This document shows, piece after piece, positions 4,218-41,509 of a DNA stretch of 64,000 nucleotides. The notes beneath the pieces were generated by a model that made no database searches, was not told where the DNA came from, and saw nothing but the letters and a program-made list of their open reading frames with translations. Positions within the stretch are counted from its first letter, which is position 1; each line of letters opens with the position of its first letter. Source of the stretch: Drechmeria coniospora (Eukaryota > Ascomycota > Sordariomycetes > Hypocreales > Ophiocordycipitaceae); NCBI RefSeq assembly GCF_001625195.1, contig NC_054389.1:3778520-3842519 (forward strand), given 5' to 3'. The position numbers and the translations under genes are program-made.

Positions 4218-4649
4218 ACACTACATGATCGACGCCAATCGACATTGACGTGGATGGCGCATCGCTGCTCCCCACGGTTGAGTCAAGGCAGAGTCCAATA
4301 TCATTTCTGCCCCATGGCGCCTGTTGGGGAGACGAAAGGCGCAGCGGCCCATTCAAGACCGATTGAGGACATGGGACAGGTGCCATCTTTTGCAGGCCAT
4401 GTTCCATCATGCCTACGATTGCTGGCATGTATCCGACGAACCATTCATCGTCTTCTGACTTGGCCGATTGAAACCGTGAGAGCGTCGAAGGAGCAAATTC
4501 ATTGCAATGGTGGTGACGAGTTAATATAGCCGTGCATTGGGTGGCCGGCCTTATCGTCTACTTGTCCGCCCAGCGAGTTGACGACGGAGCAAGGAGGCCT
4601 CCAGAAACCTGCGCCCCGAGCGATTATCGCGCGGTAATGTCGCAATGGC

Positions 4650-6236: not shown

Positions 6237-6260
6237 CCCCCCCCCCCCCCCCCCCCCCCC
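6237..6260 (+). repeat. 24-base poly-C tract
   Basis: An uninterrupted run of 24 C residues within the pyrimidine-rich leader, about 510 bases upstream of the Chs4/Skt5-like start codon. The length may be unstable or affected by sequencing error. Confidence 0.9.
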
Positions 6261-6768
6261 ACTCCACCGAGCTCATATCTCGACATCATCTGAGACAAAC
6301 CCTCGTGCAGCCTTCATACACATACGCTTCTTCCATCCACACCGTTCAACGGCTGACCTAAGGTCTCCGGCGCATTCCTTCCGCTCGCGGTTGAGCATCT
6401 CTCGTTCCCATCCCATCTTTTATTCACTAGCTGGCGTCGGTCGGCAACCTCCACGTAAACCAAGCGACGAAAGGGTCCGACAGCACCGGTCAAAAACATT
6501 CTGTCCCTTTTCCCTCGGACGACGCCTACGACGGTGCTCCAAGCGACCCGTGGCAGCCACATGCGGAGGTCCTCCTAGCTTTCCCGCATCGTGGGAGCGA
6601 AACCGACGGCGACTTCCGTTACCGTCCCTGCTCGTCGCCTGCCGCTCGGGCATGGGATCTCAGCAGACAAGGCCACTTATGCGTCGACAGTGAGATCGCC
6701 TACCTTGCGACCCCTAGACCGACACGTCGGACCACCACTTCATCCCTGCCGTACCTGCCGTGGCCGCC

Positions 6769-9681: not shown

Positions 9682-9702
9682 CATGTGACATGTGACATGT
9701 GA
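9675..9702 (+). repeat. Four tandem copies of heptamer CATGTGA across the chs4 stop codon
   Basis: Four perfect copies of CATGTGA, at 9675, 9682, 9689 and 9696. The first copy contains the last Met codon and the TGA stop of the Chs4/Skt5-like gene (9679-9681), so the rest lie in the 3' UTR. Confidence 0.9.
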
Positions 9703-16914: not shown

Positions 16915-17397
16915 TCTCGCGCTCGCATCAGCTCGGTTGGAGTTTGCGATTGCTCATCAACAACGCCCTGCCGCTGCCTTCTGCTTCTCACGTTCCCCAT
17001 GGGTGTGATCTCACCCATCCATCCAGCGTTCTCAAAACACGGCGTTCCGGTATGCGATGCGATGCCTTGGGAGGAAACTTCGTCTCTTCCGGGTAAAAGA
17101 TGAGAGTCCGATATATAGCAAAGCGTCTTCTTGTTCCTTGCCCAAACGCACCAAAAAAACACCAGGTCCGGATCCATAGCCGGTCAGCTCTCGTCCCTCC
17201 AATCCATCAGTCGCCACCATGGATCGTCCCATGACAGAAGGGTACGTGCCCGCCGCGCATTCCCGTATCACGGTAGCAGTCGAACCTCCCCTCCTACACC
17301 ATGGTCCCTCGCCAAGACTTCTCCTCAGTCAGGCAAGAGTCGCTTCCATCATTGTCGAGCTTGGCTTTTTGTTCGAGTCGGGTCGCCATTAGCCGGT
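16915..17397. other. Convergent spacer elp6 / rpl37
   Basis: The 3' flanks of two genes transcribed towards each other. I see no coding region or RNA gene. Confidence 0.55.
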
Positions 17398-17992
17398 CTA
17401 GGACTCTTGCTTGGTCGTGCCACGGGCGCCCTTGGGCTGGCCGGTCTGGAAGCCGTTCTTGAATCGTCGAGAAACGTCCTTGAGGTAGCGCATGCGACCG
17501 GTACCGACAGTCTTTCTCCGCTTGGCCTTCTCGCCCCAGTTGTCTGTGGAATGAACCATGGTCAGCGTCACGCTCGGATGGTGGAAGGGATGAATTCCGC
17601 TCAATCCGACGTGGGCAAGACGTACACTTTCGGGTCTTGGCAGCAGGGTAGCCGCAAGAGGAGCACTCATGCTTCTGGATGTGCAGCGAGCGACGACCTG
17701 GATTGCCGTCAGTATTTCCACATCCAATGCAACTTTTCGCCGCCTTCGTCTGATTTCGATTCCCATTCCCATTTCCATATTCGACAGTTTCTCCATTTAT
17801 CCTCCTCTTTCTCAGTCCGAAGGGGAAGAGGTCGGTGGGCGACTAACCGCATCGTCGGCACAGGGTGTGCGTCTTGTTGTGACGTTTACCGAAGCTGGAG
17901 GTACCCTTCGCTGCAGGAAATCGTCAGCAATGACAGCCAATTCATCTCGCGGTCGATTCGCTATTTCGTCCGCAGTGACGGCACGTACTCAT
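17398..17992 (-). CDS. rpl37: 60S ribosomal protein eL37 (L37)
   Basis: Four coding exons on the minus strand (17989-17992, 17848-17910, 17626-17697, 17398-17543) encode 94 residues, the usual size. The spliced protein begins [20 protein letters not shown] and ends in [10 protein letters not shown]. The zinc ribbon is C19-x2-C22 ... C34-x2-C37 (LCRRC and CSSC), followed by the basic rRNA-binding region [17 protein letters not shown]. It binds rRNA near the polypeptide exit tunnel of the large subunit. The first coding exon is only ATGA, and the remaining CG of the Thr2 codon lies in exon 2. Introns are 78, 150 and 82 nt. All junctions restore the near-invariant eukaryotic L37 sequence, so the model is very secure. 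Confidence 0.97.
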
Positions 17993-18089
17993 CTTGGCGG
18001 CTTGTCGTTGGGCGTGAGGTTGATGAACGATCTGGGAATTCCCGAAATGCAGGAGGGCTTTTTTCGGTGGAGTGTCAGTCAGAACTGCT

Positions 18090-18097
18090 AGCCCTAA
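18090..18097 (-). promoter_or_regulatory. Telobox / Tbf1-like site (AGCCCTAA) in the rpl37 promoter
   Basis: AGCCCTAA on the plus strand, about 100 bases upstream of the eL37 start. RCCCTAA is the Tbf1/telobox core known upstream of ribosomal protein genes in Candida and other fungi. Position and gene type fit; binding is inferred. Confidence 0.5.
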
Positions 18098-18168
18098 TTG
18101 CGGTGGAGCGCGACTCGGTTGATGGAGTTGATCCGTCTGGGTCATGTGATGATACCCTGTTTGTGTAA

Positions 18169-18176
18169 CACGTGAC
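18169..18176 (-). promoter_or_regulatory. Cbf1-type E-box (CACGTGAC) in the rpl37 promoter
   Basis: CACGTGAC on the plus strand, i.e. GTCACGTG reading towards the gene, about 175 bases upstream of the eL37 start. A related GTCATGTGA lies at 18141-18149. This matches the RTCACRTG motif of Cbf1, which accompanies Tbf1 at fungal ribosomal protein promoters. Confidence 0.5.
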
Positions 18177-18239
18177 CTAATCTCGCAACGGGATCTGAAA
18201 AAATGCGGGTACGTTTTCTGTGTGAGGGACCATGTTAAA

Positions 18240-18660
18240 TCCTCTTGAAATATTATACTGTATAATTAACTACTTAAGTAAGTACTTACTGTACTTACTC
18301 CGTGCATGTACTGTACTCCGTACTCTGTACGGAGGACCGGGAGGAGTAATTACGGAGTACTCCTAACTGAACTCGTAGGTGTACTGTACTCCGTAAAAGT
18401 ACTCCGTACATATTTGTAAGTGCCGGAGTACGGAGGACGGAATCCGGAGGACGGAGGACGGAGTACTTACAGTACGTCTACGGAGAACAGAACTCCATAC
18501 TGTACTTGCATCTATTCCGAACATCTACGTAATGCTCCGTACTCCTCATTTACTACTTACTTGAGCACTTGCAACACATGCAAGACAAGTAATTACCTGT
18601 AATACACTTTGGGGTGTTCCCGAGCAGGAGTACGGAGGACTACAGTACGTACGTACTGCA
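18240..18660. repeat. GTAC-rich palindromic-word island
   Basis: Many copies of TACTCCGTA / TACGGAGTA, plus repeated GGAGGACGGA-type words near 18429-18462 and AAGTACTTAC-type words. An imperfect inverted repeat lies near 18314-18336 (TACTCCGTAC, TCT, GTACGGAGGA). It separates the rpl37 promoter from the 3' side of the OPT gene, and nothing codes within it. Confidence 0.8.
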
Positions 18661-19001
18661 CTTGCATGATGGCACCTTTCGAAGCCATCACCATCCCCAG
18701 AACGGCTATTGTACGATTGCTTTGCATCATAGTACTGCATCTCGGACGTGGCGACACGAACAGACGTGACGTTTTCTTTGCACCATATCCATCGCTCAGA
18801 TTTTATCCGCAAGAGTACATGTCAGCCGTAATTCATCAGAGGTATCTTGTGCGCCAAATCCCACTACTAGTAAAATGCTATACAATCAACATCCGCCCGC
18901 AGACTCCATGTCGCCCCATACTCAAACTCCGGCTGCTTCTAAACTGTCCCAAAAACGTGCCTGGCCACGACCAGCATGACGTGCGAGTTGACAGTCATCA
19001 T
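18661..19001. other. 3' flank of the OPT gene
   Basis: About 340 bases downstream of the OPT stop codon. I see no coding region; it probably contains the 3' UTR of the OPT gene. Confidence 0.5.
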
Positions 19002-21636
19002 TCAAGGCCAGACGGACGGTCCAAACGTTTCGCCAGGTTGCAGATGCTTCTTGATGGCTTGGCCCGTGTAGTCGAGGGTTTCAAATGGAAAACGATTCCC
19101 CCACCAATTCGGTGCATTCTGGCCTGTCAGGTACAAGGTGAAGAAGATGAGGAGGGAGCAGACGATGAGGCCACAGTCGAGGGCGGCCGAAACGATGTAG
19201 TTGTACTGCAGCCACCAGCCGGCGTAGCGGCGCTTGATGAAGTAGTTGAAGATGATGCCCACGACACCCCAGCAGAGAAATATGTACACCGTCGCCGGCG
19301 GCAGCAAGCCGGTTCCTCCGTAGATGACGGGCGTGCAGACGTAGCGCCAAATCGACTTTGGCCACCGACGAGCGAGGAGCCAGGTGATGATGGGGGTCGC
19401 GGCGCCGACTAGCCAGAACCACTGCAACGACGAGTATATGGCACCGTGGCTGAATATGCGGGCGGGACCGATGGCGCCCCACACGACCGAGGCCGTGTAG
19501 AAAACGCGACCGCTGGGGCAGGTGTAGCTGTTGGGCTGGTTTGGCGAGCAGACATCGGGGATTCTGTGGATGGCCCAGTTCATGACGCCGATCTGGACGA
19601 GTGCCGACCAGATGGAGGCGACCAGCTGGGAGGTGAACATGACACGGGGAGGCACCTTCATGTAGTGGCCTAGCTTGAGGTCCTGCGAAAAGTAGAGGGC
19701 TTGCGACATGGAGATGTAGCCGTAGTTTTTGAACATCATCATGGCAAGGGGTCGTCCGGGGACCATGTAGCCGATGATGAACTCGGTCAGGACGTTGAGT
19801 CCAAGCTGGATGTTGGTGATGGCCTGGATGAGGCCGATGGGGATGAGCCAAATGATGGGGAGCAGCAGGCAGATGACGTATGCCCACGCAGGGAATCCGG
19901 TAGGCCAGCCGACGACAACTCCAAAGGAGATGGCGATCATGACGACGAACAAGGCTGCGCAGCGGTCAGTCAGACGAGCGGCGGGGATGGGTTGGGAAGG
20001 ACAGATTCGGCGGGGGTTGCCTACCAGCGTACCACCAGTCCTCGGCGTCTCGGTACTTCTTCATGAGGCGCATGTGGACGTCGTCTTCCTGGTGGCGTGC
20101 CATTTTGAACTGCCTCCAGATGTCCGGGCCGTGGTAGAGGGCGACGTGGATGATGACGGCGGACATGGCGGCAAAGGAGAGGCCATAGGCCATGGCAAAC
20201 TGGGTGGAGAGGAAGAGAGGCGAGTACTGCTTGTAGGCCGTCTCGTTGAAGCGGAAGTTGCTGTCGAGGATTCGGCTCACGTTGTAGATGTTGCCCATGT
20301 TGTCGTAGGACTCGGAGGACTGGACAGGAACGTAGTCGGCGTACCATACGCCGCTGAAGTGAACGCCCATGGAGACGAAGACGAAGAAAACGACGATGCC
20401 GACGAGGACATTGGCGATGGCGTGGAAGGGAGGGATGAGGGGCGAGCCGACGAAACCGCTGACGATGGTCCAGTCAAAGGTGACGGGCATCAATCCGTAG
20501 CCATGCTGTCCGCCGAATATCTTGTTGACGACGACGTTGTTGGGGGCAACCCAACACAGCCAAGCAAAGACGGACAAGCCTCGAAAGATCCAGCCTGGGA
20601 TCCAGTAGTAGACAAAGGCGGCCACTCCGACGATGAGAAAGAGCTTGTATCGGCCAATAGACCAGCCGTTGGTCTTGGAGGGATCGGATCTCGAGTGGTC
20701 GTGCAGGGTGTAGAAAAGAGCGCAGTTGACGAGGTCGGCGGGCCAAATCATGGCGGCGGGCCAGACGAGGAAGCGTCGAGCGAGACCGGCGAGGCCGTAG
20801 CCGGTGCAGAGGGTTGTGATGCCAAAGAGAATCTGGAAGGCAGGTCCAAAGTCTTGTCCATAAAACACCTTCTGGGCGATGAGAACATCGGTAGCGTACA
20901 GGACGCCTCCACCATACGCAGCCTACGTTTGTCGTCAGCAGCTTTCCCGGCTCCGACACGGCACAGTGTGCCCCGGGCAGGGAGTGGAGTGTATCGGATT
21001 TACATTTGACATGGCGACGATGACGACGTGCTCCTTGTAATTGAACTTGCCGGGTCGAAGGTTGAACTTGAGTCCGCAGAGGTTCCAGACTCTGTCGGGC
21101 ATGACGAGGTCCCAGCCACGACCGATGGGGTAGGCGATGAGCTGGACGACGTAGGTCGTGATGGCGATGCTAGGGTTTCTAAGCGAGAAGAGCATGTTGA
21201 CGCCGGAACCTAGGGTGCAGAGAAGCATGCCGATGACCCAGGCGCGAACGGTGTTGGCGGGGAAGTCGACGTCGTAGTTGCGGACGACGGCACGAACCTG
21301 GCATTCTGTCAGTCCCATTCCGTGCGTCTGGGTGTGCACGCGGGATGAAGGAGCCGGCGGTTGACCGCGAAAGGGCGTGCGTACCTCTGGATAGGGGCTG
21401 TTGTCTTCCATGAGAGCATGCTCAATCTCGATGCCCTTTTCGGCATTGCCCGTTGCGATGGCGGCATCCACATCGTTGAGGTCGTCGAGGGGGAGGTTAG
21501 GGTCCAGCTTGTGGGCCTTTTCGAACTGCTGAAGGTGCTGCAGGTGATCGACGCTCGACGAGTTGGCATCAAAGGGTCCAGGTATCGGCGTGATCTCCTC
21601 GACCTCGAGTCGCTTCCGGAAGAAGGAGCGAGCCAT
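19002..21636 (-). CDS. Oligopeptide transporter, OPT family
   Basis: Four exons on the minus strand (21385-21636, 21004-21297, 20025-20922, 19002-19954) encode 798 residues, the usual OPT length. The first splice joins SPYPE to VRAVVRNYDVDFPANTVR, restoring the SPYPEVR motif before the first membrane span. About a dozen or more hydrophobic spans follow, with family sequences such as NPSIAITTYVVQLIAYPIGRGW, WPADLVNCALFYTLH, KIFGGQHGYGLMPVTFDW and YMVPGRPLAMMMFKNYGY, and the C-terminus ends NAPNWWGNRFPFETLDYTG. OPT proteins are proton-coupled plasma-membrane importers of tetra/pentapeptides, glutathione or metal chelates; the substrate cannot be told apart here. The C-terminal half is in one long exon. 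Introns are 87, 81 and 70 nt. The soluble 84-residue N-terminus is acidic. Confidence 0.93.
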
Positions 21637-24600
21637 GATGAGCGAATATGACGATCGATTTCGATATCGGATGGGCTTGCAACTCGGGAACTCGAGACTG
21701 ACTGACTAACTGACTGACTGATTGACACCCGCCGTCAAGACGACGATGGCCGCCGCCGTAGATTCGACGACGAAGGAATGGAAAGCAACGTATCGTCTCG
21801 TCTTCGTTCTATCATCGCCTGCTGGAGACGGAAGAATGCGGCAGATGGGAGGAGCGAGGGGGGGGAAGCTGGAACGAGGGTTCCGCCTGCTCCATCGAAC
21901 GAGTACATACGGAGCCAGTGTTCGGCAACGAAGCCGCACCGTGCTGCGGCTGTTGACCTGATGCGCGGGCAGCGTCCCGGGGCGAGCCCGTCCAACTGGC
22001 GGGCCAGGAACAGGGGGCAATCAAGCACTAACGGGCCACTAACTATCCGCCGCAGCCGGGGCTTTGCTTTGGCCCGGCTGAACAGGCGGCGGGGATGGAG
22101 GGACTTTGGTCACGCTAACGAGACCATTGGCGTGAGAGGTTGACATGAGCAGGGGCTCCGTCGCCCTGGTTGTACATGTAAGTGCAGGTGAGGGCTGTCT
22201 TGGAGGAGGAGGTTCGAAGCCGCCTGTCGGATGCAGTCCAAAGCAGGATGAGAGCGGGATCGAAAGAAGTGGCAGCAGATGGAAAGAGTGGACAGATGTT
22301 CTGTGAAAGAGTCTGTCGCCTCGTTTCTTTACAGGAATGAACCTGTAGCAACACCGTAAATGTTTGCTCAAGCTGTCAAAGGGGCACGTTTGGAGAGGAG
22401 GAGGGTACCTAGCGTCCATGTGCGTAGCAAAAGTACTCGCACAGTGATGCTGGGTGCCGACCTGCCTATCCGGGCGTAGTCGCCACGATGGCTGCAGCAA
22501 TGAGTGAGCCCTAGCCAGCTCGAGTCTGGTATCGCCCGTTCGCATGGTACAGGAGCAAGTACACTTGCACCAATTGCATGCGTAACTAGTACATGGACAG
22601 TAACACGTTCGGTGTGTTCCCCCAGAACTAATAGTCCGTGCCTGCAACTATTATTAGGTGCAACCGTGGTTGCGTGGCTCCCGCAACCTCATCCATCCAT
22701 CCACAACCAAACCACCACCACTACCACACCACGATAATACCTTGCCGCATTCGCCGGACTTGGTCCACGCTGCTGTGGCTCGGCATTTCCTTTGATTCCG
22801 GACGGTGGATCCGGGACTCGGGACTCGGACCCTTTCGGACCCGGAGCGGAGAGTTTGGCGGATAGCGGTACGTCAGCGAGTCGTCGCGGCTTGGATGACC
22901 AATCGAGGCAGATGCAAATGTCTCCTTGAGCCAATATCGATTTGCAATTCGCCATCGCTGAGACATATCGTGCCTACGACTTTGCTGCCCAAGGACCCTT
23001 GCTGTCTTATTTGTTTGCTCGACTGTTTCCCATCCGAAGCATTCCCAAAGTGGAAATGACGCCCTTTGCTACCTACGCTCAGCAGCAGTTGGTTGAAGAT
23101 GCAAAGTCTTCTCCCGACAGAATAACGATGTACGTTTTAGATGATTCCCCTTCGCACGAAAACAGTCCCTTCCAATGTCTCTCGATCCTCGCAAGCTCGT
23201 TCGTCAGCAATCCGGGGTCCTTGGCACCATTTCTCGCAGCACACAACGCTTACCCGTCAGTGAGCACTTGGGGGCCCGACGTTTCGAATGCAGTAGTTGT
23301 CGAATATCCCATTTAATCCGAGTCATCCGTTTGATGGCGACTATTCGTAGGAAACTATGGCAAGACACAAGTGTTGGTAAGATGGATTTAGCATCCGAGA
23401 ACTTGCTGCTGCCTCACCTACCAAGCCGCGGCCTGTAGGTCGCTGTAGGATTCCATGCAGCATGCAGGACTTTTTGCCCACGGTGGTCTTCTAGTCGACA
23501 GTAGTAGGCCGAAAACCCCTAGAAGCAGCTATGGTTTCTATACGGTGGCACTCGGAGCAGCCGACACCCTTTCTGACTTGCACGGTGTCGTGGCACTATA
23601 GGGTAGCACGAGTGAAAACACGAGGCATCACGGCGGGTGGAGAAACGTCCCAACCCACGCGCCGTCAAGGCTGGCCTGCTCGCTGCCGCCTACCGAGTAC
23701 AAGTACCCGGCACAAGGACAAGTATCGTATTTATCTAGGCACCTGCCCAGCGGCCGCGCTGAGCCTTCTCGGAATGGTTGGTCATCCAGGTCGGTGACAT
23801 GGAGGTTTCTGTGACAGGACGGGGCCTCATCCGTTCGACCATTGAGCACGACATCTCGACCCCCATGGCAAGCACGGGAGGATAATGCCTCTGATTTTAT
23901 GATCATTATTCCGGATTCAAGGCCGATCAAAAGCCGCAGCGAAGAAGGATATTTCCGGATGCGCATCACAGAGTTCGCCTCGGGCGCAGCCTACGCCGAA
24001 CCTGGCGAAAGAGGCCTCTGATGCTGCCTATCAGCACGTTCCGTGGACCGGGACATGGTGCCGGTAATAACGTCATGAAATTGAAAGTGACAACCGGGGT
24101 CGCCGAGAAACTGGAACGCACCCCACCCTCCGACAACGAGAACGGAGGACACGGGTGAGGTGCGATGACAGGAGGACATGACGGAACGAATGAAACATGG
24201 TGAGTCTCTATTCGCAACGCACGGTTCGATAGGGCCGTGACGGCTTCAGCAATTCCATGGAGACGACCTTCTCTCACGATAAAGTTACTTTTGCCACCCC
24301 CCCCTCCTCCAACAATGGAATAATAACCCGGGAAACGGTTGCATAAGTATGCAGCCAGCCTCGACACGAAAACGACGTGCAGGAAATGTGTTCCTCGCAA
24401 GTCAGCCCAACAATCGACAGGTCGTATCGAGGGCCGGAGCGCAAATGCAGGTGCATGCTGATGCAGATATCATGCACGTGCAAGGAGCACAAGAAAGTGG
24501 TGATGCCTCCAAGCAAGCGCATGCAGGTGAAACGAATCAAGGTTGCCGTTAACAATACCTGCTGAACTCAATCAGTATGAACATGTACGCCCTCGTCATC

Positions 24601-25399: not shown

Positions 25400-26546
25400 G
25401 AAAGCGACATATGTGTACAGGTAGGTACTCCATGCATACAACTACATGTCGTAAGTGTATGCCCGCACAGAAGTACAAGTAGATGACAAAGGGGCAGCTA
25501 TACAATGGAAACGTAAGTACTGTACACTTATACGGGGTACATGTGGGTGAAATGAAGCGTTGCGTTGACCCTCAGGGCAGTGCAAAGTCCGAATGGAGCT
25601 GGTGTTTCCAAGTGCGTCATGCACCTTTGTACGCAGCACGCGTCAAATTATCGTTGGTGCAAAACGAGTGTAAGTACTGTACTGTGCTGCCAGGTTTACG
25701 AGGACGGAGTGCCCCGTTCTTGCGCACCTATGTAAGTAGAACATATTGCTAAATATAGAGACACTCGGAGCGTTTGCTGGCGAAGCACAACGTACGCAGC
25801 ACCTCTGGGCTCGTGCAAGGGGCCTTAGGACGCATGCCGAAGGCGCATTGGCAGGGGTACGGAGGACATGAACATGCCCTACCGCCGGGCACCCGGGGGA
25901 AAATTCGGCGACAAACCAAGCGATGCGCAGCACGTTGCAAGTAACGGCATGTGTACTTGGTAGTAGCGCCGATGTTCTGTCCAGGGGCATCGAGATGTCG
26001 GGCGAAGGTGTGGCTTCGCAGCGAGATACGGCGATGCGTCATCGGCATTACCGTCCTCGTACTCATCTCACGCAAGAAATTGAGCCGTGAGGGGTTGAGA
26101 TTGCTCCGTGCGAGTATAGGCATTGCCATGTACTCGTACGGAATGGAGAAGACGCCGATTCGTATCGTCATCGTGAGCCTCATCTTCCTCCGCCTCCGCC
26201 TCTTCTTGGCTTCCGCACCACTGTGTGGGCGGTGGCTATACTGTAGGGGCAAGTAGAGTGGTAGGTGTAAGTACAAGTACCTGTAAGTTAGTGGAGGTGG
26301 ATGTACTGCACATGTACATTGGAAGGCTGTTAAGAGGGAGCGAAAGGGAATTGCGACGAAATTCGAAATTGCTGCGTCGCGTACATGTGCCTGTTGGTCG
26401 TTGTTATTATTGAAGAGACCCGGGTATTGCTGAATTCTACCTGGACGAATTGATAGATGCAAGTACGGAGCATGCAGCACTCCGAAACTCCGTACAATAC
26501 CTGTTGTTCGAGCGCCAACATGCATGCTAAGCATGTTCATGTGCTA

Positions 26547-26575
26547 CCTAGGTACCTAGGTAACTAGGTACCTAG
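26547..26575. repeat. CCTAGGTA palindrome cluster
   Basis: A perfect 14-base palindrome CCTAGGTACCTAGG (26547-26560), then TAA, then the 12-base palindrome CTAGGTACCTAG (26564-26575). Immediately upstream, CATGC-TAA-GCATG also forms a small inverted repeat. Confidence 0.85.
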
Positions 26576-28347
26576 GGAATGGCATGGTGAATACGGCGCA
26601 AGTACTGCACTGTACTGTGCTGCACCTGAGTACCAGGTACAGTTACAATCTTACATGTAGGTACTCCGTAGTACGCAAGGTAGATCTGCAGGAGGACATA
26701 CCTAGTACTTACGTACGTTTCCTCAGCTTTTACGGAGTAATAACGGAGGCCAGCACTTGTAGGCTTCCAAGTACTCCGTACCTACCGTATTATACTTACA
26801 TTTGCGGGTACTCCCTGTCCCCGTACTTGCTGTATACATGCATGTACATGTAGGACGTATACAGTATCTACGTATTTGTACTCCGAACTCCGTACTTGCT
26901 CCGTACTTATATCAAGGAATAATTACTCCGTACCGGTTGTGTACTTACTGCAGTTGTACTCCCTACTCCGTACGCAGACTGTACTGTAAGTATAGTACAA
27001 CTACATGTACTTGTGTGTGCTGGCAAGTGCACGGGCACTCCTCAAGGATGCTTGAATGGATGGGTCAAGGTTTGGAACCCCCTTGTCCTTGAAATCGCTC
27101 GTTGGCCGATGAGCAAATCAAAGGACTCGGAATATGGATGTGGCAGAAAAACCCGCGACGTACGGAGTACTCGGAGCGTGAATATCGCGACGGGTCCAAG
27201 TCAAGGTTTTGGCAATTTCCGCGACAGGGGGGGGGGTCGAATTGATCAAGCTTTTGATAGCACATGGCCTGTTCATCCATCCTGTACCGGGTACCTAAGT
27301 ACTCACAGTAAGTGTAAGTACTTAAGTGCAAGCGAGTATTAATCAGTTTTGTTTCTCCGTACGGAGCACGGTACGGAGCAAGTATTACTGTACTGTGGCT
27401 GTACAGTACTTGCACCAAATTCCGGTTGCGATGCGGACCACAGCAGCAGTCTTCACAAGTACCCGTACTACAGCACAAGTCAAGGTATTACTCCGTACAT
27501 GGAAGTATTTTCGCGGTACTGCAGCTCTACGCGTCGTGCACTATTGGTGCCTTGAGATACGTGCTTGCATGTACGCGACCGCGTTCGAGCAGCCACACGC
27601 GCAAGTACGGAGTACTAGGTATGCACATGTAAAAGTACAGTGCTCCGTAAGCGCGCATGCATTGCACGTGTAAGTACTTACGTGCAACTAAGCAATAGTT
27701 GTACTTTGTCCTCTGTACTCCGTACTGTACGTGCGCACCTTGGAACGAACGGATGTACTTACTGTACTTGTACAACTAGGTGTAGGTGTACGGAGCACAT
27801 GTGCTCCGTACTGGTCCAGATTTTATTTTGGCATACGAGTCAAGATGATCAGGAAACAGGTCAGTGCCCTCATGTGGAATACTGTGCAGGCACTCTGTAC
27901 TTGAGTACTCCATACTTCCTACTGTAATCTGCCTATTCATGTAAGCATTATTACTTGCATCTGCATGTGGACAGGCGCACTGCAAGAACATGTTCTCGTA
28001 CTGTAAGCAGGTGTTCTTGTACATGTACGTAGCACTGTACTTGCATCGTACTTGTGCGCGGAGTATCTAAATGTACACCAACAAGTACATGTACGCCTGT
28101 GCGCACACGCAGTACAAGTACAGTACCTCAGCAAGAACCTACACGTATGAGTGCAAAGACAGTACACAAGTATACTCCGCACTCCTGCGATAGATGCAGG
28201 TACAAGGTAGTATTCGTTTGTCCAATGAGGCGATCAAGCAGGGGTCGCGTCACGGACTTTGGGAGGGATCGTGCCAGCCAACGCGAGGGAGCAACGCCAA
28301 TGGGGCGGCGGCTGTGGCGCCTTAGCTTCTCGCACAATGTACCTACA

Positions 28348-28380
28348 CGTACGGAGTACTCCATACATGTACTCCGTACG
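28348..28380. repeat. Inverted repeat with 12-base perfect arms
   Basis: CGTACGGAGTAC (28348-28359) and GTACTCCGTACG (28369-28380) are exact reverse complements separated by nine bases, able to form a hairpin or cruciform. Confidence 0.9.
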
Positions 28381-29232
28381 CATGAGAAGCATGCAGGGCA
28401 GAGGTACGGAGCACAGCACAGAATAGGTAGGTAGGTGCGAGGATGGAGGTCGTCTTTCCTAGGAACAGGACGCAAGCTCGTTCTCTGCTGCTGACGGGGA
28501 CGGTCGATGTGCGTGGAACGGGGACTTGGCTGACAGGTATGAGCACAAGTATACCTTGGTGCATTTGCACGGGGTATGCTCCGTACAGTGGGAGGGTGTA
28601 GAATTAGGATGTACTTGGGTGCAATTGTACAGTACACCTCGGGACAACTACAAGCGGAGTACGGAGCGCAGCGGACGCCATTCGTGCTGACGACTACTTG
28701 TACAAGAAGGAATTCCTAGTACTATTCCTGTGCGGAATCCTCTGTACTTGAGTACAGGAAGTAATATGAGCTGAACTGTGATGTTTACAGTATTACTTAC
28801 TCCCTGCGAGTCCCGTACAACTAAATGTATTACTTGTGCTTATCTTCACACGTACTCGGCTTACTGGATGGTACAGAGAACTTGTACTTGCATGCGCGCT
28901 ATTAGTACTCTGTACTTCACTCCGCACCGAAATAGCATGCACAGAGTGCCTGCACTTACAGTAATACTCCATGTCTAGTACTTACTAGGTACCTACCTAG
29001 TACTGTACGTAGGTACTGATCTAATGGTGTACTTGTGGGTGTGCAACCACCTGCACTCACATGCAGGTTAGGCGCAGGTGCTGTACTTACGTACAAGTCT
29101 GTACCGATGATATTGCTGCACAGTACGCCGTGCTCCGTACAGTAATACTAACCTGGTACTCCGTACTCCGTACTTGCATTTCTGATCGGCTTCAGCCCCT
29201 CCACCTCCAGTGAGTGCATCCGGCATGCGCTG

Positions 29233-29332
29233 GGATGTTGAACCAGCCGAGTTCGCAAAAGTGCATATTGCCTTGCAGAGATGGATGTTGAACCAAACGA
29301 GTTCGCAATAGTGCATATTGCCTTGCAGAGAT
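29233..29332 (+). repeat. 50-bp tandem duplication, slightly diverged
   Basis: The unit at 29233-29282 (GGATGTTGAACC... to ...CTTGCAGAGAT) is followed by a second copy at 29283-29332 with about three substitutions (AGCC versus AAAC, and CAAAA versus CAATA). Confidence 0.85.
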
Positions 29333-29621
29333 GTGTGCTTACTTCGCAGCTCGCCGCTTCGCAATTAGACCACGCTGTATTTCGTACTCCGTACGCAGTA
29401 CATGTACGCGTCTTGTTCTCGTGCACTGTTACTTGCACCAACTTCTGTACACGACCGACACCACCAGTACGTAGTGAGTAGGTGCTTAGGTGTGCAGCAA
29501 GGCCGACAAATACAAGCACCCGTCACCGACCGCCCCTTCAGTGTCCACCGTGGAAAATGAAAGAAGACGGCGACGTTGTGCAGCTTGAGCTGATGTCTCT
29601 TCCATTCGCGTACTTGCCGAC

Positions 29622-29687
29622 GCAGGTGTAGGTGTCGTCGCATGGTACTGCCACGCAGGCGTAGGTGTCGTCGCATGGTACTGCCAC
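29622..29687 (+). repeat. 33-bp tandem duplication
   Basis: The unit at 29622-29654 (GCAGGTGTAGGTGTCG ... TACTGCCAC) recurs at 29655-29687 with a single T/C difference, and a partial third copy GCAGGCG starts at 29688. Confidence 0.9.
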
Positions 29688-32600
29688 GCAGGCGCGCGAA
29701 CCCAGCCGTCGTTGAGGCTCTAGCTTGCGACCGACCTATCGGGCAGCCGCCTGATACGAAAATGGCATCATTCATGCACCAAGCAAGACGGCACGGCTCG
29801 GTCGCAAGAGTCCATTCGCTCGATGTGAGACGGCAAAGGCGGATTCGGGGGTGCTGTCGCCTTGGATGGGCCTGCGAAGAGATCTGCGGTGGCGCAAGGA
29901 CGGGGGAGTGGACGACTTGTTGGTCCACCAGCCTGACGACGACGTTACGAATACGAGTGCCTACAGTAATACCAGGCACTCCGTAATTATGCATGCTCAA
30001 TGCTCGATCCAGGTTCAGGGTGGAGGATACGAGAATCATGAGCCTTGCAGGGATGACAAGCGAGATGCACTGCTGTTGGTAGCGCGTGCAAGAACAACAA
30101 GTACATACATAAAGTTGGCTGTAGGTGCACTTGTATGCATGTCTGGTACGACACCAGTCGGCAAGACTTGGAGAAGTTGCTGAGCATCTTGTTCAACGCT
30201 TCATGCAATTTATGGCCAAAGGAAAAGCCCGTGCTCGTACACTGCACTTGTACGCGCACTCGCAAGTATACAGGTATGCATGCTGGTACAGTGATATCGA
30301 ACATCTTGTTCAGGGTGAATAGTGCAAGCACAAAGCACTAGCAGGTATTAGTTGTACTGTAGGTTACGGAGAACAAGCGATGTACGATGTACAGTACCTG
30401 CTTGTGCTTATACCTACTAAGTATTACTGTACGCGCGAAGTTGGAGCACTCCGTACAAGTACACTTACAAGCACTGTACTCCGTATTAACATACTTAAAG
30501 ATTGTTTCCTGGGCCTCCATCTGCCTGCCGCCATCCATGTGAGGCTTGGAACGGGACAGTATTCCTTTACCATCAGCGGCGCAATTCGTCTAGCTAGTAT
30601 TGCAGGCAGGCTGCCCACTTGGTCACGGAGCTGCTTGCCACGCCTTACAGCACAAGGCCCTCCCATCATCATCCTGTCCTCATCTCGCCATGTGAATAAC
30701 CCGAGGAGGGGTGAGCAGAGAGGCATGAATGGAAGGGATGAAAAAGTCGAGTGCACGGCACCGTACGCCACTGCCGCACGGGCACTGAGATCGGGCTGCC
30801 TCCCAGGCCACCAGACAGCATGACCGGCTTCTCGGTGCGATCTTCTCCACTGCCATCACCAGTCTCACCAGTCCTTGCTCCCGTGCCTGCACCCCTCTGA
30901 GCTTCGTCCGCCGACAACTCGTACCCCGTACCGATCCCGTAGTGACTCGAAATGGAAACGACGGGTAGTGTCGGTCATTGGCACACGCATCGTCCGAGTA
31001 TCACCGCACCGCACCAGCACTGGCAATTGCGTCCTTGTCCCAGGACGTGAAGCGGCGGAGCACTAACATTATACCGTGCAAGTACATGTACAGCACAGCA
31101 GGTGTATGTGCAGTGCGTTCTAGGTCACTTAGTGCTCCGCGCTACTGGGGGCCACATCTTGTCTCATCCCTCAACAGGCTTAACGCTGGCCCCTGATCCA
31201 TGGGGTCAAGGCTCTGGTAGCTCTGCAGGTGCTCCCTACCTCGCAGCCCAGCACATTCATTCTTCATACTGCTCCGTTGGTACCTAGGTGGTCTTAATTG
31301 GCACATATGTTTGTGCATGCGAACAGCACCGAGTGCGGAGTATAAGCTATGAGACTGCACAACTACGAAGTACTCCGTTTAGGATGTGCCAATTCAAGTA
31401 CAGAGTACATGTCGTGTTAGTGTTACAAGCACTTGCGGAATACTGCCGGCGAACAATGTACTGCGAGGTGGGACGCGGACGACGCATCAAGCTGCGGGTA
31501 GTACGGCATTCTCGCCAATGCTAGCATCGGTAAATTTCACTCAACCTGGCGATTGTTGGTAAGCATTCGAACGAGGCCCGGAAAATCAGCAAACACCCAA
31601 GTGAGTGTTGCTGCTTCCAAGATAAGTCCGCCTCGGCTCAGATTCCATCATGATACGCAAGTGCATGCATGTACTTGTAGGCTCACCCCCTAGCCACGAC
31701 AACTACAACTGCCTGTACTGTACGACTCGACCATGACATATTACCAGCAAGTACAACAAGATACATACTTATTTCACATGTCCGGCGGAGGAATAATTAC
31801 AATGCGATGCGCCGTGTGCTACTGTGTTTGCAGGTGACCGACTTCCTGTACGGGTTTTTGCCACCAGCGGCCGCCGTGACCAACCCGACGCCAAGAGCCC
31901 CATCGGTGCAATGACAAACGGTGGGGGGCGAGCGAAGTTGACGCCAGCCAGACGCGATGCAAACTTCAAAGTTGAAAAGTGTCCACTCCAGTTCTTGCCT
32001 AGTCCGGCAAACCGTAAACGTACATGTACTCGGTACAACGTGCTTACCGTTGTACCTTTGTACCCAAGAGCCCCTCTACGCGTGTCATCCAAGTACTGCG
32101 GTGAGTGATTAGATAACTTCCTAGTATTTTCTGCTACGTGCTCGTTTACTAGTATCTTTGTGTAGGTGGCAGTACAGGAAATGTACTTTGTGCGTGCAAG
32201 TAAACCTGTTTTGTCAGTACGTACTTGTGTGCAGATACTGTACGGAGTGCATGCACATGTTCCTCCATTCACCGTGAGCCAAAAGTGTCCAAGACATGTA
32301 CCATACGGTAACTCCGTACATGTACTCCGTGTATTACGATTCACCCGTAGGTGTACTCTATGTTTGACCCTCGTCCTCGTTGGTGTAATTAATTCAAGGA
32401 AAACTCTCCGCTTGCTTCAACCGCCACTCACTTGGCCGGAGATCCAGCGACCGGGGCGTGCTGACATGTACTAGGTACTTAATTTATTGTAGGCCCAGTA
32501 CGGGGGACCGGAGTGCTCCGTACCTACAATGTACTTGCTTGGCTTTACTGCGACAGCAGGCCCGACACCTCACAACTCAGGCCGAATCAGCAAGTAGCTT

Positions 32601-33350
32601 CTAGGTCTGTAGAGAAGTAGCCGCCAGCATACTACGTGGCTGAGTTGTCGACTGACCATCTAATCATACCTAATACGGTTCCTGCTGCGAGTATTGTTCG
32701 GTGCGCATGTGTTTAGAGACTACCTGTGGGTACCTGCAGCGGCACGTTGTACCTGTCGCAGTGTACTCCGTACTTGCAATTACTCCGTACCTGTACTAAG
32801 TATTATATGAGCAGAGTACATATACAAGTAGTATGAGCACCTATAAATTAATACATGCAAGTATTTGTACATATTTGTACTCCGTACTGCACAACTACAG
32901 TACATGTATTACGGATTACGGAGTGCATGTACGTTGTACGGAGTACTTGCAGTAATACAACTACTGTACTTAGGCAGCGTGCATGTACTTGTAAGTAATG
33001 TACTTAAGTACTACATGTACTACTGGCTTACTGCGAGATTGTTAGGCGGCGAGTGGGGTGGAAGGGGGGGCGGGTTGATAAATTACATCGGAGCTGGTGC
33101 TCGTTTATTCGCACGCTGCGAGGTAGATCGTAGCCGCGACTACGGAGTAATACCAGTCGGAACACATGTCCTTCTTAGTGCCTTGGCTTGTACCTGGCAT
33201 CAGTCGGGCAGCACCGGTGGTGCACTTTCGCTTCTCCACAGGCCAATTCGCGACTCCATACGAGTACTTTCCCGTACCTGCATGGTGTGCGGCGCTCGTG
33301 AATGTACACCGACGTGTACATGTATGCGCACGTAAGTATTTCTTTCATCA

Positions 33351-35088
33351 ACAAACAGTTCCTTCCGCCCCGTTGCTTCTCGCTTTGCCTCATTTCCTCT
33401 CCTCTCGTCTTTCCTCGTCCTTGCACCAAACAACGCAGGAAACAGAAACCACCAGGACGGACGGAGCAAACGAAAGCGAGACGACTCCAGCGAAACGAGA
33501 CGAAGACGGCGGCAGCACTTCCGGCGCCACGTGACGACCAAACCGCCTGCCTGGTCATTTCTCGATCGAGTAGCGCGCTCTCAACTCGTGCGTGTGTTCT
33601 TTTGCTCACCAGAGCCCTGTTGGCCTGAGTCCTCCCTCTTGGCCTAGGCCCTGCTCGCTCACCCGGCTGGGCCTGCTTGCCTGCGGCTGCGGCTGCGACT
33701 GCGCCCGTGCCTTCTGCTGCCAGCAATTTAGGAGCGGTGCGGTATCACGGTCTACAGTACTTACGGTGTTACGGAGCACAGCACTTGCAGCTGCCGTGGT
33801 CGATGGTGCCCACTCATCCGTCCATCCGCCCATCCGTCACATTCTGAACCGCATGCATCGCCGTCGCTCGGTTGGCCGTCAGCATCCATCCGCTCCGCCC
33901 GCGCCGCTGGTCCCCAGCACCCTCGCTCCGTCCAATCCCCGACCGTTTCCCCTGCCGTCCTGTCGACCACTGCCGGCTCAGCTCGCGTCCCACCGCCCAC
34001 CGCTGTCCGTCCGCTCGTTCGCTGCCACCTTCGGTTCGAGCTCGTCCTGTGCCATTTGCCATCGGCGCCTCGTCTGCCTCGTTCCCTGTTTTGGCTCTAG
34101 CCGATCGATTAGCACCCTCGTCGCTCGTTCGTCGGCCGGCACCAGGCAAACCCACACAGCACCGCCGTGCAGCCGGCTACACGGTGCGACGACAGCCTCG
34201 ACGAAGCAACCGTGGACGGGTACCAGTCCGTAACGGAGTGCACCGTCGCCGCTGAAACATCCGCCCGAGGCCGCCCAACCAATTGCCGCCACGGACATTC
34301 ACTTGTCGCAGTCACCACGTTTGGTGTGTCTGTCCTGCCCGCCCGCCGCCCTAGGCTCCTACCCATCTGCGCCGTACCGTGCCAGCTACTCGCTTGTACT
34401 TGCAGCAAGCAGGTGCAGGTACTTTTCGCCGTCACTCGAGTCACGCCCCCCCCCCCCGACGCCTCGTCTCTAGGGGTCGTGTTCTCTGGGCCACCATCCA
34501 CAGTCGCGCTCTGCCCTCGTTGCCGTCAGTGTGCGAGCGCAGCGCTCCAGCGGTACACACACGCCTTGGTACCGACTACCTAAACTGTCTTTTTTTTTTT
34601 TTCCAACGGGAGCACGACCAGCGAGCCGTACGGAACGCAATCGCAACACGCACTGGCAGCAGTGCGCACTCGTCCGATCCCTCCCCCCCTCCAGTGGTCT
34701 CCCACACCGACCCTCTACTCCCCGACGCTCTCACGCACATTCTCACCCACGCACCCCCCCTTCGCGGCCAAGCAGCCACGGCGCACTCCCTTCCGATACT
34801 CAGCTCGACTTGCTCGCTCCGTCACATCCTCGCGTCCCAGGAGCGCCTGCGCGCGGTCCCGCACCCATCCAACAAGTCTCGCCCACGCCCTCGTCGTTCG
34901 CTCGCCATCCGTCTCCGCACACGGCACGCATCCCTCCCAAGGAGCCGGTGACCGACGCCCACTGAGATCCTCGTCAGCCACAGCGAGCCTCTCCCGCTCA
35001 TCGCGTCTGCGACTGGTGACGGGGGCCATCGCCAGACGCTACCTCCCAATCTCTGCTCGCTATTCCTCATTGGGGGCCGCGACAGAAC
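33351..35088. other. C/T- and GC-rich presumed promoter and leader of the ketopantoate-reductase-like gene
   Basis: Pyrimidine-rich on the plus strand with many short frames rich in Pro, Ser and Arg but no recognisable protein. It includes a T-run (34591-34602) and C-runs near 34446 and 34682. Its composition matches the leaders upstream of the Chs4-like and MFS genes. Confidence 0.5.
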
Positions 35089-37980
35089 ATGGCACCCATG
35101 ACGCCTCGTCTCAAGGTTCTATCAGGTATGTCGTCCCACCACCTCCCGCCGCCCATCGTTGTCCGAAACGCCTTTTTTTCGCTCTGCTCCGGCTCCCTGT
35201 CGCCTCAGCACACTGCCCTGGCGCGCGCCGCTCTCTACCTTTAGCGTTGCCCATCCGCATCTCCCCTCGTCGTCGCTGCTGTCGCCATTCCAGTTTCCCG
35301 GCCCTGCCGCGATCCCCTCCTACCCTTTCTTGCCTGCCTCGCCTTCGCACTGCTCTCGTCCCTCCCCTCTCCCTGCCTCCTGTCCGATTCTTGGGGAGAA
35401 AGCTGTCGATGCAGCGATCCCCCGACATCATTCACCATGAGCGACACCCAACTAATGCAAGTCTGCTCAGTCGGCGGAAATCCCGTCTCCGCCTTTCTGT
35501 CCTGGAGGCTTCAGGCGACCAATGCCTGCGACGTGACCCTCGTTTGGAAATCCGGCTTTGAGCATGTCGCCCAGTACGGCATCTCGTTCAAGTACGTCCG
35601 GCGACCCGCTGCCTCGTGAATCCACTCCGCCGACGCTTCCCCGCGAGGTGCTGACCCTGGCCGTCGACAGATCGCCCATCTTTGGAAACGAGCGGTTCAA
35701 GCCTCGACACGGTATGCCCCCGGCACCGCCCCGACCCGACCGCATCCTCCGCTGACCCTTCCGTCCCTCGCCGCAGTCGTTCGGAACCCCGAAGACGCAT
35801 CCAACATCCGCGACGGTCCCTTCGACTACGTCGTCCTCTGCGTCAAGGCCCTCCCCGACGTCTACGATCTTGCCGCCGTCATCGACGCCGTCGTCACCCC
35901 CCAACACACGTGCATCCTCATAAACACGACGCACACGCTCGGCGTCGAGGCCGCCATCGAGGAGCGCTACCCGACAAACGTCGTCCTCTCCCTCGTCTCC
36001 GGCGCCGAATTGATCCAGCTCGGCCAGAGCGAGTTTGAGCACAAGTCCTCGACCGAGATTTGGGTTGGGCCCGCGAACAAGAGCAGCAACATCCCGGTCT
36101 CGATACAGGACAGCATGGCCCAGGCGTTGGCCATGACCCTCAGCACCGGTCAGGTCGATTGCAAAGTCTCCCCCAACATCCGCCAGCAGCAGTACGAGAG
36201 GGTCATCGGGTGAGTCGCCGGCCGCTCCTTTCCTCGCCTTGACGCCATCCTCGATCGGCCAGGTCGCTGACCGTGTCGCAGACCCATTTCCTTTCATCCC
36301 GTCAGCGTTCTATTCGATACCCCCAACCACGCCGCCCTGTTGGACAAGGTCGGCGTCCGCGAGATGGTGTCCGACGTCATCGACGAGCTGTTGCGCCTCG
36401 CCGACGCCAGCGGCTGCAAGTTGTCGTCGGATTTCAAGCAGCGCACAGTGGACGAAATGACGAGACCGAACCTCCCGGAAAGCATCATGTGGCAGGACTA
36501 TGTCGCGAGACGGCCGATGGAGGTCGAGACGTACCTCGGCTCCCCCATCAAGCTGGCCCGCGACTTGAACGTCGCCGTGCCAAGGATCGAGACCCTGTAC
36601 GCCATCCTCCACAACCTCAACATCGTCAACAGGTCCAGGCCCAAGCCCGGAGAGGCCGTGCCCATGATGCCCCCGAGCTCCCCCACCGTCTCGACGTCGC
36701 TCCCGCGGATGCCCTCGCTGCAAGGCCACCGCCCCATGATGCCCAACGGCAACGGCATGCCCCGTCAGCCGCGGCCCAGAAACCTGTCCAACGTGAGCCA
36801 ACCCGGCAGCATGCGTCGCGGGCCCCCCTCGATGGCCGGTGGCCCGCCCAACGGCTACCCGCGTCCCCCGCCCTCCTTGAACGGAGGGTCCAGAGACCCC
36901 TCGAGGCGGGGCTCCATGGACGGCAACGACCTCGAAGAGTTCTCCCACCTCGTGCTCTACGACGACATCCCCGAAGGCCAAGAGCCGACGATTGGCGATC
37001 CGGAGCTGGCCCTGCGGGAGCGAGAGCTCCAGCTTCGCCAGCGGGAGCTTGCCCTCAGGGAGCAGGAGATGCGAATGCGGCGCGGCCCGCCGCCGGGTCC
37101 CCGCCGCGGCCATCACCTCGGCCCTCACCCCGGCTCCCTGCCCGTCTCTCACCCCGGCCCCCACCCGATGCGCAACAGCCAGCAGGTCTTCGACGACGAC
37201 GACGACGACGACGATTTCGTGGACCCCTCCGTCGCCACCGGCGCCCCCACCATCGACCCGGACAATTTTGACATGATGAGCATGACGTCTCGCAAGACTC
37301 GCAAGGCAAGCGGACCGTCGGCCGCCCAGTTCCGTCGAAATCCCGAGGTCGACGGGCCTCTGCCGCCCTCCCGCGCCGGCAGGTACCGCCCGAGCTTTGG
37401 TCGCAACCGCGGGAGCCATGTCAACCACGCGCCGGCCGTGACGGACAACATCCTCGAGGACCCCATGATGGGCTTCACTTCGAACCGTTACGGCGCCGTC
37501 GACCGAGGAACCATGGGCGCCAGCTCCCGAGCAAACTCTCTGACGGCTTCGAGGCTGGACGAGCTGCAGCACGGGTCGGCCAACGGCGGCTCCTCCGGAA
37601 GCATGAACGGTGCCTACCCGCGTCGCGCCAGCCAGTCCCCCGGGAACCCGTATTCCCCCTCGGTGCGCGGCGGCAGCGGCCGCCCCTCGCCTCCCAACGG
37701 CTTCGCCTCGTCGCCCATGAACAGGCGCCCCTCGCCCTCCGACGGGGTTCGGCAACCCGTTCCGCGATACCCGCCGGGACAGGGAAACGCTGTCGCTCCC
37801 CAGCAGGTCGAGCAGCAGATAGGGGTGAGCGCCCTTGATCCACCCAAGAAGCCCAGAAATGTCCGTAGTCTGACGGGTAGTGCGAGTGCTAGCGCGGGCA
37901 GTGATGAGGTCGACTCGGGGCAATCGGCGCACAGCAGCCAGAGCAGCCTCGGGCAGGGGCCGATCGCGACGGCGCGCTAG
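35089..37980 (+). CDS. Ketopantoate reductase (PanE/ApbA)-like protein with long disordered C-terminal extension
   Basis: Five exons (35089-35125, 35471-35591, 35671-35711, 35777-36209, 36282-37980) encode 776 residues. Residues 1-330 have the two-domain layout of ketopantoate reductases: a Rossmann-type start (LKVLSVGGNPVSAFLSWRL), then DYVVLCVKALP and CILINTTHTLGVEAAI, and a helical C-domain ending in REMVSDVIDELLRLADASGC. The Lys/Asn catalytic motif of true PanE is not conserved, so the activity is doubtful. Residues 330-776 are Pro/Ser/Arg/Gly-rich and disordered, with a charged helix built from RELALRE-type repeats and a run of Asp residues (VFDDDDDDDDFVD). Similar long fungal proteins exist and their role is unknown. 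An alternative start at 35437 (MSDTQLMQVC) would skip the 345-nt first intron; I prefer 35089 because it supplies the first beta strand. Confidence 0.82.
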
Positions 37981-40753: not shown

Positions 40754-41509
40754 TGCGGATTATGGCCTCTCTGTCGTAATGCAACTGCCGAAGCATCGAG
40801 ACAGGCTGGCTTTCATTCACCTGTTTGCTTGTTTCGCGAGGCAAGCAATATTAAGGTGCGAGGTCGGAGTAGATTTCTCTCAATGCGTAATAATAATCAA
40901 ACCTCCGCACTGTACGGAGTACTGTACAGTAAGTAATTGTACTGTAGGTACGGAGCAAGTGTACAAGTGTACATGTAGTACCGGGGGGGGGGGTTGTTAC
41001 ATCCGTAACAGGAAATATTAAATGTACATGTAGAGTATTGCATGTACTTAGCTGCACAAATACACATAGTTGGTGTACTTGTGACACTGTGTGTCCTCCG
41101 TCCAAGCTACAAGTACATTTAGTAGGCCAACAAGTACATGTATTACAGCAGATGTACTGTACAGTACATCTACGGTGCACATGAGAGAACCGGATCCGTC
41201 ACATGACTTAGCGTGGCGCACGAGCCAGGACGACGGCAAACAGTCATTCACTCCACTAGCTTCAGCCTTGCAAACATCCCTTCGTCAACATCAACTTGGT
41301 TGGGAAAGTCGACCCTGGACGCTGCCAACCCCGTTCATCATCGCACTCCGTCCATACTTGACGCTGTCTGCCTTCAATTGAGTAATCTTGTCCCACTTGC
41401 CCCTTGCCACGGACTACGCCTCGGCATCAACTACCTACCCCTCCCACCCTCCTCTTCGGCGACGACGACTGCATTTCTGCATCCGGCGACAGAGAGCACC
41501 GCAGACAAG
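40754..41509. promoter_or_regulatory. Divergent intergenic promoter region rpr2 / sub2 with GTAC island
   Basis: About 40905-41180 is GTAC-rich (for example GTACGGAGTACTGTACAG and ACAAGTACATGTATT) and is split by a G-run at 40984-40993. Bases 41190-41509 are plainer, C/T-rich sequence, the likely leader of sub2. Both promoters must use this spacer. Confidence 0.55.

Follow-up and report, generated by a model that had tools for sequence, protein, structure and literature searches.

The window considered here is a 64-kb stretch (C1:3778520-3842519) of the genome of Drechmeria coniospora, a fungus parasitic on nematodes, and the feature under study is a set of islands that are dense in GTAC and in longer words built from it. 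The main site among these words is the 11-mer GTACTCCGTAC; the 10-mer GTACGGAGTA / TACTCCGTAC is referred to below as the core word and TACGGAGTA as the 9-mer core. The word set is real, genome-wide and upstream-biased, and the kind of motif is already known in filamentous ascomycetes. Judged from the sequence, the islands are probably clusters of putative protein-binding sites in upstream regulatory DNA. A preliminary description of this DNA had offered a self-spreading palindromic element, a mutational or repair bias on GTAC and a dispersed protein-binding site as options, and the last of these is the best supported one, by the enrichment upstream of genes, by an uneven tolerance of substitutions and by a published motif from chromatin immunoprecipitation (ChIP) and electrophoretic mobility shift assays (EMSA).

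Islands and genes of the window

Ten GTAC-dense islands had been claimed and all of them are indeed dense, with 19.5-58.0 GTAC per kb. Of the window's 588 GTAC, 373 fall within them, as do 28 of the 29 core words, all but the one at position 6143. The strands of many genes near the islands were set by Pfam scans of the neighbouring frames, and an Rfam scan of the window at gathering level gave 0 matches.

The leftmost island (4650-6152 with the word at 6143 included) carries five core words, at 4653, 4863, 5201, 5212 and 6143, and lies upstream of a plus-strand gene for a Sel1-repeat protein (7302-9515, a frame of 737 aa, PF08238 with E 9.6e-39). Minus-strand pieces predicted at 6709-7586 by the hidden Markov model (HMM) for coding DNA are regarded as shadows, because the plus frame 7302-9512 has the Sel1 match and the antisense frame 7761-9857 is without a Pfam match. 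The next island (10900-11720) has 16 GTAC and no perfect core word and is situated upstream of a plus-strand MFS transporter gene in pieces (12150-13704), of which the frame 12607-13704 matches MFS_1 (E 4.7e-21) and the 5' piece from 12150 is an HMM prediction.

The island at 18240-18660 (20 GTAC, core words at 18314 and 18400) occupies a convergent region. It is faced on its left by the 3' end of a plus-strand gene of unknown family (17131-18168, a frame of 345 aa), for which six homologous proteins were found (the best at E 2e-24 with 48% of the query covered) and no Pfam match in the Pfam scan, and on its right lies an OPT oligopeptide transporter gene on the minus strand in three pieces (19002-21681; Pfam OPT, E 1e-79, 1e-75 and 6.6e-21).

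The main group of islands, at 25400-33350, contains 208 GTAC and 16 core words and lies in gene-poor DNA several kb upstream of the OPT gene. On its right side there are putative frames at 33.8-36.2 kb, and this neighbour stays putative since no homolog of the frame 34599-35552 was found at E<=0.001. The group, which had been listed as a single stretch, is uneven, with dense parts at 26.5-29.5 and 32.0-33.0 kb and sparse DNA at 29.5-30.0 and 30.5-32.0 kb.

Further to the right, an island at 40905-41180 with 16 GTAC and a core word at 40912 separates the divergent genes for an Rpr2 protein (minus strand) and a DEAD-box helicase (plus strand). Four small islands (44760-44990, 47330-47930, 48345-48560 and 49260-49570) with one core word, at 47541, precede at some distance a plus-strand cyclin-domain gene which starts at about 51831. 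The last island (56235-56900; 38 GTAC, core words at 56243, 56256, 56334 and 56887) is upstream of a plus-strand MRS2-like magnesium transporter gene with a predicted 5' piece from 57000 and a Pfam-matched part at 57751-58380 (PF22099, E 1.5e-80). An XPF/RAD1-type gene on the minus strand (60389-63289), 98% identical to a MUS38-like protein of D. coniospora, follows. The islands at 4.65-6.15 (Sel1), 10.9-11.7 (MFS), 40.9-41.2 (Rpr2/DEAD) and 56.2-56.9 kb (MRS2) are hence those which stand upstream of supported genes.

Word vocabulary and position relative to genes

Genome-wide counts refer to the 32.83-Mb assembly, whose large contigs, three in number, measure 12.54, 10.20 and 9.75 Mb, and the control for each word is the identical letters in reversed order. 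The core word GTACGGAGTA is present 12,197 times against 58 for its control, which for this 10-mer means an enrichment of about 200-fold. The 11-mer GTACTCCGTAC has 8,489 exact copies (control 21) and GTACWGTAC 8,731 palindromic sites (control 501). As 8,733 genes are given for the published annotation of D. coniospora, which was made on a different assembly (PMC4859500), there is about one perfect 11-mer per gene. A third-order Markov background had been proposed as a check, and the core words are far above it: 29 were observed against a mean of 0.55 (maximum 3 in 40 runs) when the whole window was simulated, and 28 against a mean of 3.19 (maximum 9 in 200 runs) when only the islands were.

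For noncoding DNA with a normal base composition (94.5 kb), the spacing of GTAC pairs was compared with a fifth-order Markov simulation. Start-to-start distances of 5 bp were found 52 times (49 of these pairs enclose one A or T) against 34 simulated, those of 6 bp 42 times against 16 and those of 7 bp 76 times (45 with TCC/GGA between) against 14, and beyond these spacings the excess of GTAC clustering is almost flat, a little higher at 11-13 bp. In the islands as defined in this analysis, 168 of the 892 GTAC belong to the CTCCG family, 380 to other named words and 344 to none. No other word is as strong as the 11-mer, yet the phenomenon extends beyond it. A minisatellite of the island vocabulary, with GTACTGTAC words in a 23-bp register, is located at C1:526350-526473.

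Palindromes of 10 bases exceed a third-order Markov expectation in the islands 2.7-fold when centred on GTAC, 3.1-fold on CATG, 3.5-fold on TTAA and 2.4-fold on AATT, with the other twelve cores at 1.6-fold or less, many of them on small counts. Outside the islands the GTAC-centred ones again reach 2.7-fold and several other cores 2.0-2.6-fold; given this similarity, a general correction for palindromes does not discriminate between any of the hypotheses.

Coding-like frames cover 49% of the window and contain 0 of the 29 core words. Since the coding HMM had been trained partly on GTAC-rich noncoding DNA, this was rechecked with Pfam- or homology-supported pieces only, and the 30 such pieces (39.2 kb) have 0 core words and 2.86 GTAC per kb, against the 19.5-58.0 per kb of the islands. 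As to introns, in which the preliminary description had not seen the core word, the 13 putative ones amount to only 1.3 kb; they lack it and contain GTAC at 4.5 per kb.

The term intergenic, which had been used for the islands, means for the most part that they lie upstream of genes. In detail, 42 edges of supported genes were entered by hand and 7 were dropped for too little noncoding DNA, while other supported-gene edges, the 5' edge of the Sel1 gene among them, are outside this set. The 17 five-prime flanks (up to 1 kb each, 14.9 kb in total) have 15.0 GTAC per kb (median 12.0), whereas for the 18 three-prime flanks, which total 11.5 kb, the density is 4.1 per kb with a median of 2.0. The difference gives a Mann-Whitney p of 0.00026 and a permutation p of 0.004, both optimistic because several flanks share one intergenic region and many 5' edges belong to predicted pieces which themselves match no Pfam family. 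The CTCCGTA core is found 35 times upstream and 13 times downstream on the same flanks. With automatic gene calls, eight classes of GTAC words have upstream/downstream ratios of 1.3 to 3.9, and the comparison words CATG (0.77), TGCA (1.03), CCAAT (0.86) and GATA (1.02) follow no upstream rule.

Among regions of 400-4000 bp, the GTAC-dense ones number 9 of the 12 between divergent genes, 4 of the 10 between tandem genes and 2 of the 12 between convergent genes (divergent versus convergent, Fisher p 0.012), and one of the two dense convergent regions, 4178-6708, was subsequently reclassed as upstream because the Sel1 gene is on the plus strand. On the 5' side the density increases from 6 GTAC per kb within 200 bp of the gene to some 20 at 600-1000 bp, and on the 3' side it is 4-7 per kb up to 600 bp. 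The 1.7 kb of the divergent promoter of RPS3 and a myotubularin gene contain 44 GTAC, with 8 core words.

This distribution also bears on the suggestion that the words belong to the architecture of chromatin or replication and would dock a general organiser, be it an insulator, an origin protein or a general regulatory factor that clears nucleosomes, instead of a gene-specific activator. The supply of about one site per gene, the inclusion of a housekeeping promoter (RPS3) and the presence of the words in one convergent region speak for it, but some supported promoters are without the word, such as that between IML1 and a cation efflux gene, whose 1.65 kb contain 4 GTAC and lack the core word, and we regard this suggestion as very unlikely. 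We also hold it to be quite unlikely that the GTAC half-site, paired at 5, 6 and 7 bp, is read by a family of dimeric regulators or by one general organiser. If it were so, a "GTAC code" would label the DNA upstream of a large part of all genes and would be the filamentous-fungal counterpart of the general regulatory factors of yeast.

Substitution, orientation and origin of the words

One-letter variants of GTACTCCGTAC are unevenly distributed over its positions. Genome-wide, A>G at position 3 is found 1,274 times (15% of the 8,489 exact copies), C>T at position 7, the CpG position, 1,052 times (12%) and A>G at position 10 701 times (8%), and C>T at positions 4 and 6 jointly 583 times (7% for two positions; 4 variants at position 4 and 1 at position 6 among 100 matches listed), with 21 to 52 for the reversed controls. 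In the local sample the core CTCCGTA is tight and the ends of the word (its first bases and its last base) are loose. The ratio of A>G at position 3 to that at position 10 is 11:1 locally and 1,274:701 genome-wide, and the weaker genome-wide ratio was used. Free decay would spread the variants according to mutation rates, and we therefore read the uneven counts as a sign of protein recognition.

A conversion of GCAC or GTGC to GTAC by repeat-induced point mutation (RIP) or another C-to-T process was considered as the source of the words, in line with the mutational or repair bias of the preliminary description. The genome does carry RIP-like blocks and two genes for C5-DNA-methyltransferases (C1:4284982 and C1:7409160; open frames of 654 and 1373 aa), which would presumably suit RID- and DIM-2-like proteins. 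In addition, islands with GTAC masked are shifted slightly towards RIP when compared with non-island noncoding DNA, with a (CA+TG)/(AC+GT) of 1.14 versus 1.23 and a TA/AT of 0.97 versus 0.71. This shift is, however, far from the values of the RIP-like blocks, which at C1:3000001-3010000 are 0.30 and 1.89 with 2.9 TAGCTA per kb and at C2:2000001-2010000 0.35 and 1.86 with 2.8 TAGCTA per kb, both at a GC content of 0.31. The islands have about double the outside density of GCAC and GTGC, RIP makes no 11-base word and a context of 4 bases is a poor source for a 10-mer with the enrichment given above, all of which makes this process hardly credible as the origin of the words. A block at C1:2500001-2510000 with 19.8% GC in its noncoding part (9.8 kb) has a normal (CA+TG)/(AC+GT) of 0.99 and is a candidate for a centromeric or other AT-rich block.

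Pairs of core words show no preference for one orientation between 10 and 1000 bp, the direct:inverted counts being 4:6 at 10-30 bp, 10:13 at 30-100 bp, 28:23 at 100-300 bp and 33:34 at 300-1000 bp, which adds to the support for dispersed binding sites, though direct pairs prevail at 1-3 kb. At 10 bp or less there are 7 direct pairs and 1 inverted. Head-to-tail arrays of the heptamer are not the rule, as the 18-base form of two units was met 6 times in 254 kb versus 87 words in 224 kb; the direct overlap of two 7-bp units is nonetheless enriched. In detail, the direct form CGGAGTACGGAG (CGG-N4-CGG) has 1,739 copies genome-wide (control 8) and the inverted form CGGAGTACTCCG (CGG-N6-CCG) 580 sites (control 1). 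With regard to the speculation on opposed CGG and CCG half-sites for a Zn2Cys6 protein, the direct pair is thus three times commoner than the inverted one, both are far fewer than the 8,489 words, and a single word alone carries one CGG.

These data have to be seen together with the proposal of neutral growth of short repeats, according to which the 7-base GTACTCC and similar units multiply by slippage or template switching and survive where the sequence is unconstrained. The excess of same-strand pairs at 10 bp or less and at 1-3 kb is as expected from such growth, as are the predominance of CGGAGTACGGAG over its inverted counterpart, the existence of longer arrays such as the GTACTGTAC minisatellite and the similar tandem heptamers described below for bacterial and phage-like contigs. 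Identical GTAC-centred 10-mers 10-300 bp apart, moreover, occur at about 4 times (direct) and 2 times (inverted) their frequency between loci. Yet the copies are mostly single and dispersed and lack an orientation preference between 10 and 1000 bp, substitutions are tolerated unevenly, there are no strongly conserved flanks and noncoding DNA downstream of supported genes is sparse in GTAC, which is why repeat growth by itself appears unlikely.

As to the flanks, 56 aligned local copies show no strongly conserved column beyond the word's last base (C in 45 of 56) and the next T (30 of 56). A transposon or a miniature inverted-repeat transposable element, for which a conserved body or conserved flanks beyond the word would be expected, was rejected on these copies. 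Footprints or targets of mobile elements, be it a small palindromic element or Tardis-like Starships, for which TACGGAGTAG is the predicted target in Aspergillus fumigatus (PMC12153272), are highly improbable with 8,489 copies and such flanks, no search for Starships in this genome having been made. The self-spreading palindromic element of the preliminary description is accordingly not borne out as a mobile element, yet copying of 7 bp in tandem does take place.

According to the binding-site interpretation, one or a few sequence-specific DNA-binding proteins would read the sites packed into upstream DNA. The main one would be GTACTCCGTAC with its core CTCCGTA, and related sites would pair two GTAC with spacers of 1, 2 or 3 bases. 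Selection for binding may have multiplied the word, with help from the duplication of 7-bp units in short tandems, and some CpG decay and some tandem duplication would have acted beside protein recognition.

Several observations weigh against this interpretation. For a specific regulator, a perfect site for roughly every gene is a large number, and C>T at position 7 partly resembles ordinary CpG decay. Core-word pairs at 1-3 kb are direct in 56 and inverted in 30 cases, these pairs being non-independent. The hand-entered flanks suffer from the fact that several of them fall in one intergenic region and that many 5' edges are those of adjoining predicted pieces, and the upstream excess is weaker with HMM-only gene calls (12.1 versus 6.4 GTAC per kb). 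Downstream bins beyond 600 bp reach 15-30 GTAC per kb (7.6 kb in total, with 4178-6708 included as downstream). The 18240-18660 island sits between two 3' ends, those of the 17131-18168 gene and of the OPT gene, and 9 of the 13 downstream CTCCGTA cores fall in this flank (18160-19010), where a small gene or an unannotated RNA gene may possibly start. Finally, a search of the genome for SomA, a Flo8-type regulator which recognizes the word elsewhere, yielded five matches and no obvious SomA, only LisH-domain searches having been made; judged from their frames, the five resemble GID8, RanBPM, TAF5, another CTLH protein and LIS1. Our confidence has been reduced slightly on account of the orientation count at 1-3 kb and of the distal downstream bins.

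Comparison with known systems

Bacterial and phage-like contigs (IMG/VR and GTDB) contain tandem heptamers of the GTACTCC, GTACTCA and GTACTGA type. Two 11-mers within 30 bp were found in 91 stretches of GTDB contigs against about 1 expected by a hand estimate, and among the matches listed (80 of the 91) there are many from Thiohalocapsa and others from Omnitrophica, Gemmatimonadetes, Opitutae, planctomycetes and Chloroflexi. The heptanucleotide short tandemly repeated repetitive (STRR) sequences of cyanobacteria resemble the GTACTCC/GTACTCA heptamers, which look like a widespread family of heptamer repeats. Their 7-base unit equals that of the fungal word, but they form tandem arrays whereas the fungal 11-mers are mostly single and dispersed, and the two are probably unrelated.

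Aspergillus fumigatus and Drechmeria belong to different classes of the Ascomycota; Ustilaginoidea virens is, like Drechmeria, hypocrealean. The 11-mer or its 9-mer core has been described in both of these other species.

In the SomA study of A. fumigatus, as far as its motif and binding results are concerned, GTACTCCGTAC is the top MEME motif of the ChIP-seq data, present in 119 of 476 peaks, and SomA bound fragments with GTACTCCGTAC in EMSA that included a mutated-probe control (PMC7667024). The 11-mer of that motif is identical to the D. coniospora word and there lies upstream of target genes. In D. coniospora the match is exact in all 8,489 copies and the upstream location holds as a tendency, with the 18240-18660 island as a clear exception and with less strength under automatic gene calls. 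Unlike the SomA motif, the D. coniospora word has about 8,500 copies and many companion GTAC words. By analogy, we infer that a SomA/Flo8-type or another regulator may read GTACTCCGTAC in D. coniospora, and that SomA itself is this reader is put forward tentatively as a possibility.

In A. fumigatus Af293, CTACGGAGTA ranks above the 99.99th percentile of k-mers, and the authors suggest a transcription-factor site and point to an overlap with a predicted C6 zinc-cluster motif, adding that the function of the word needs experimental confirmation (PMC12153272). In the same source the word appears as a direct repeat at the predicted target site of the Tardis Starships. The core TACGGAGTA and the genome-wide over-representation are common to both species, while the upstream rule and the GTAC spacing grammar are features of D. 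coniospora that are absent from the passages on Af293 (PMC12153272).

For U. virens, TACGGAGTA is listed as one of six MEME motifs in the ChIP-seq peaks of UvCGBP1 (PMC8344781), a 9-mer equal to the core in D. coniospora. As the site of UvCGBP1 tested there by EMSA is AGGGG, TACGGAGTA may be a passenger in those peaks.

Among the papers listed in a text search, 18 contain the 9-mer core together with "filamentous fung", 13 of which are on filamentous ascomycetes by title (three of them on the SomA motif), against 3 papers (1 on a filamentous ascomycete by title) for the reversed 9-mer. Among the papers listed in searches of the open-licence PMC literature, no report was found of the grammar of GTAC pairs at 5, 6 and 7 bp or of the Drechmeria case. 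The same word has been met in ChIP peaks of SomA, among the k-mers that are strongly over-represented in A. fumigatus and as a landing site of Starships. Drechmeria, in which perfect copies are about as many as genes and the words follow a spacing grammar and favour upstream DNA, would be a good system for finding the protein that reads the word and for asking whether filamentous ascomycetes use it as a general promoter element.

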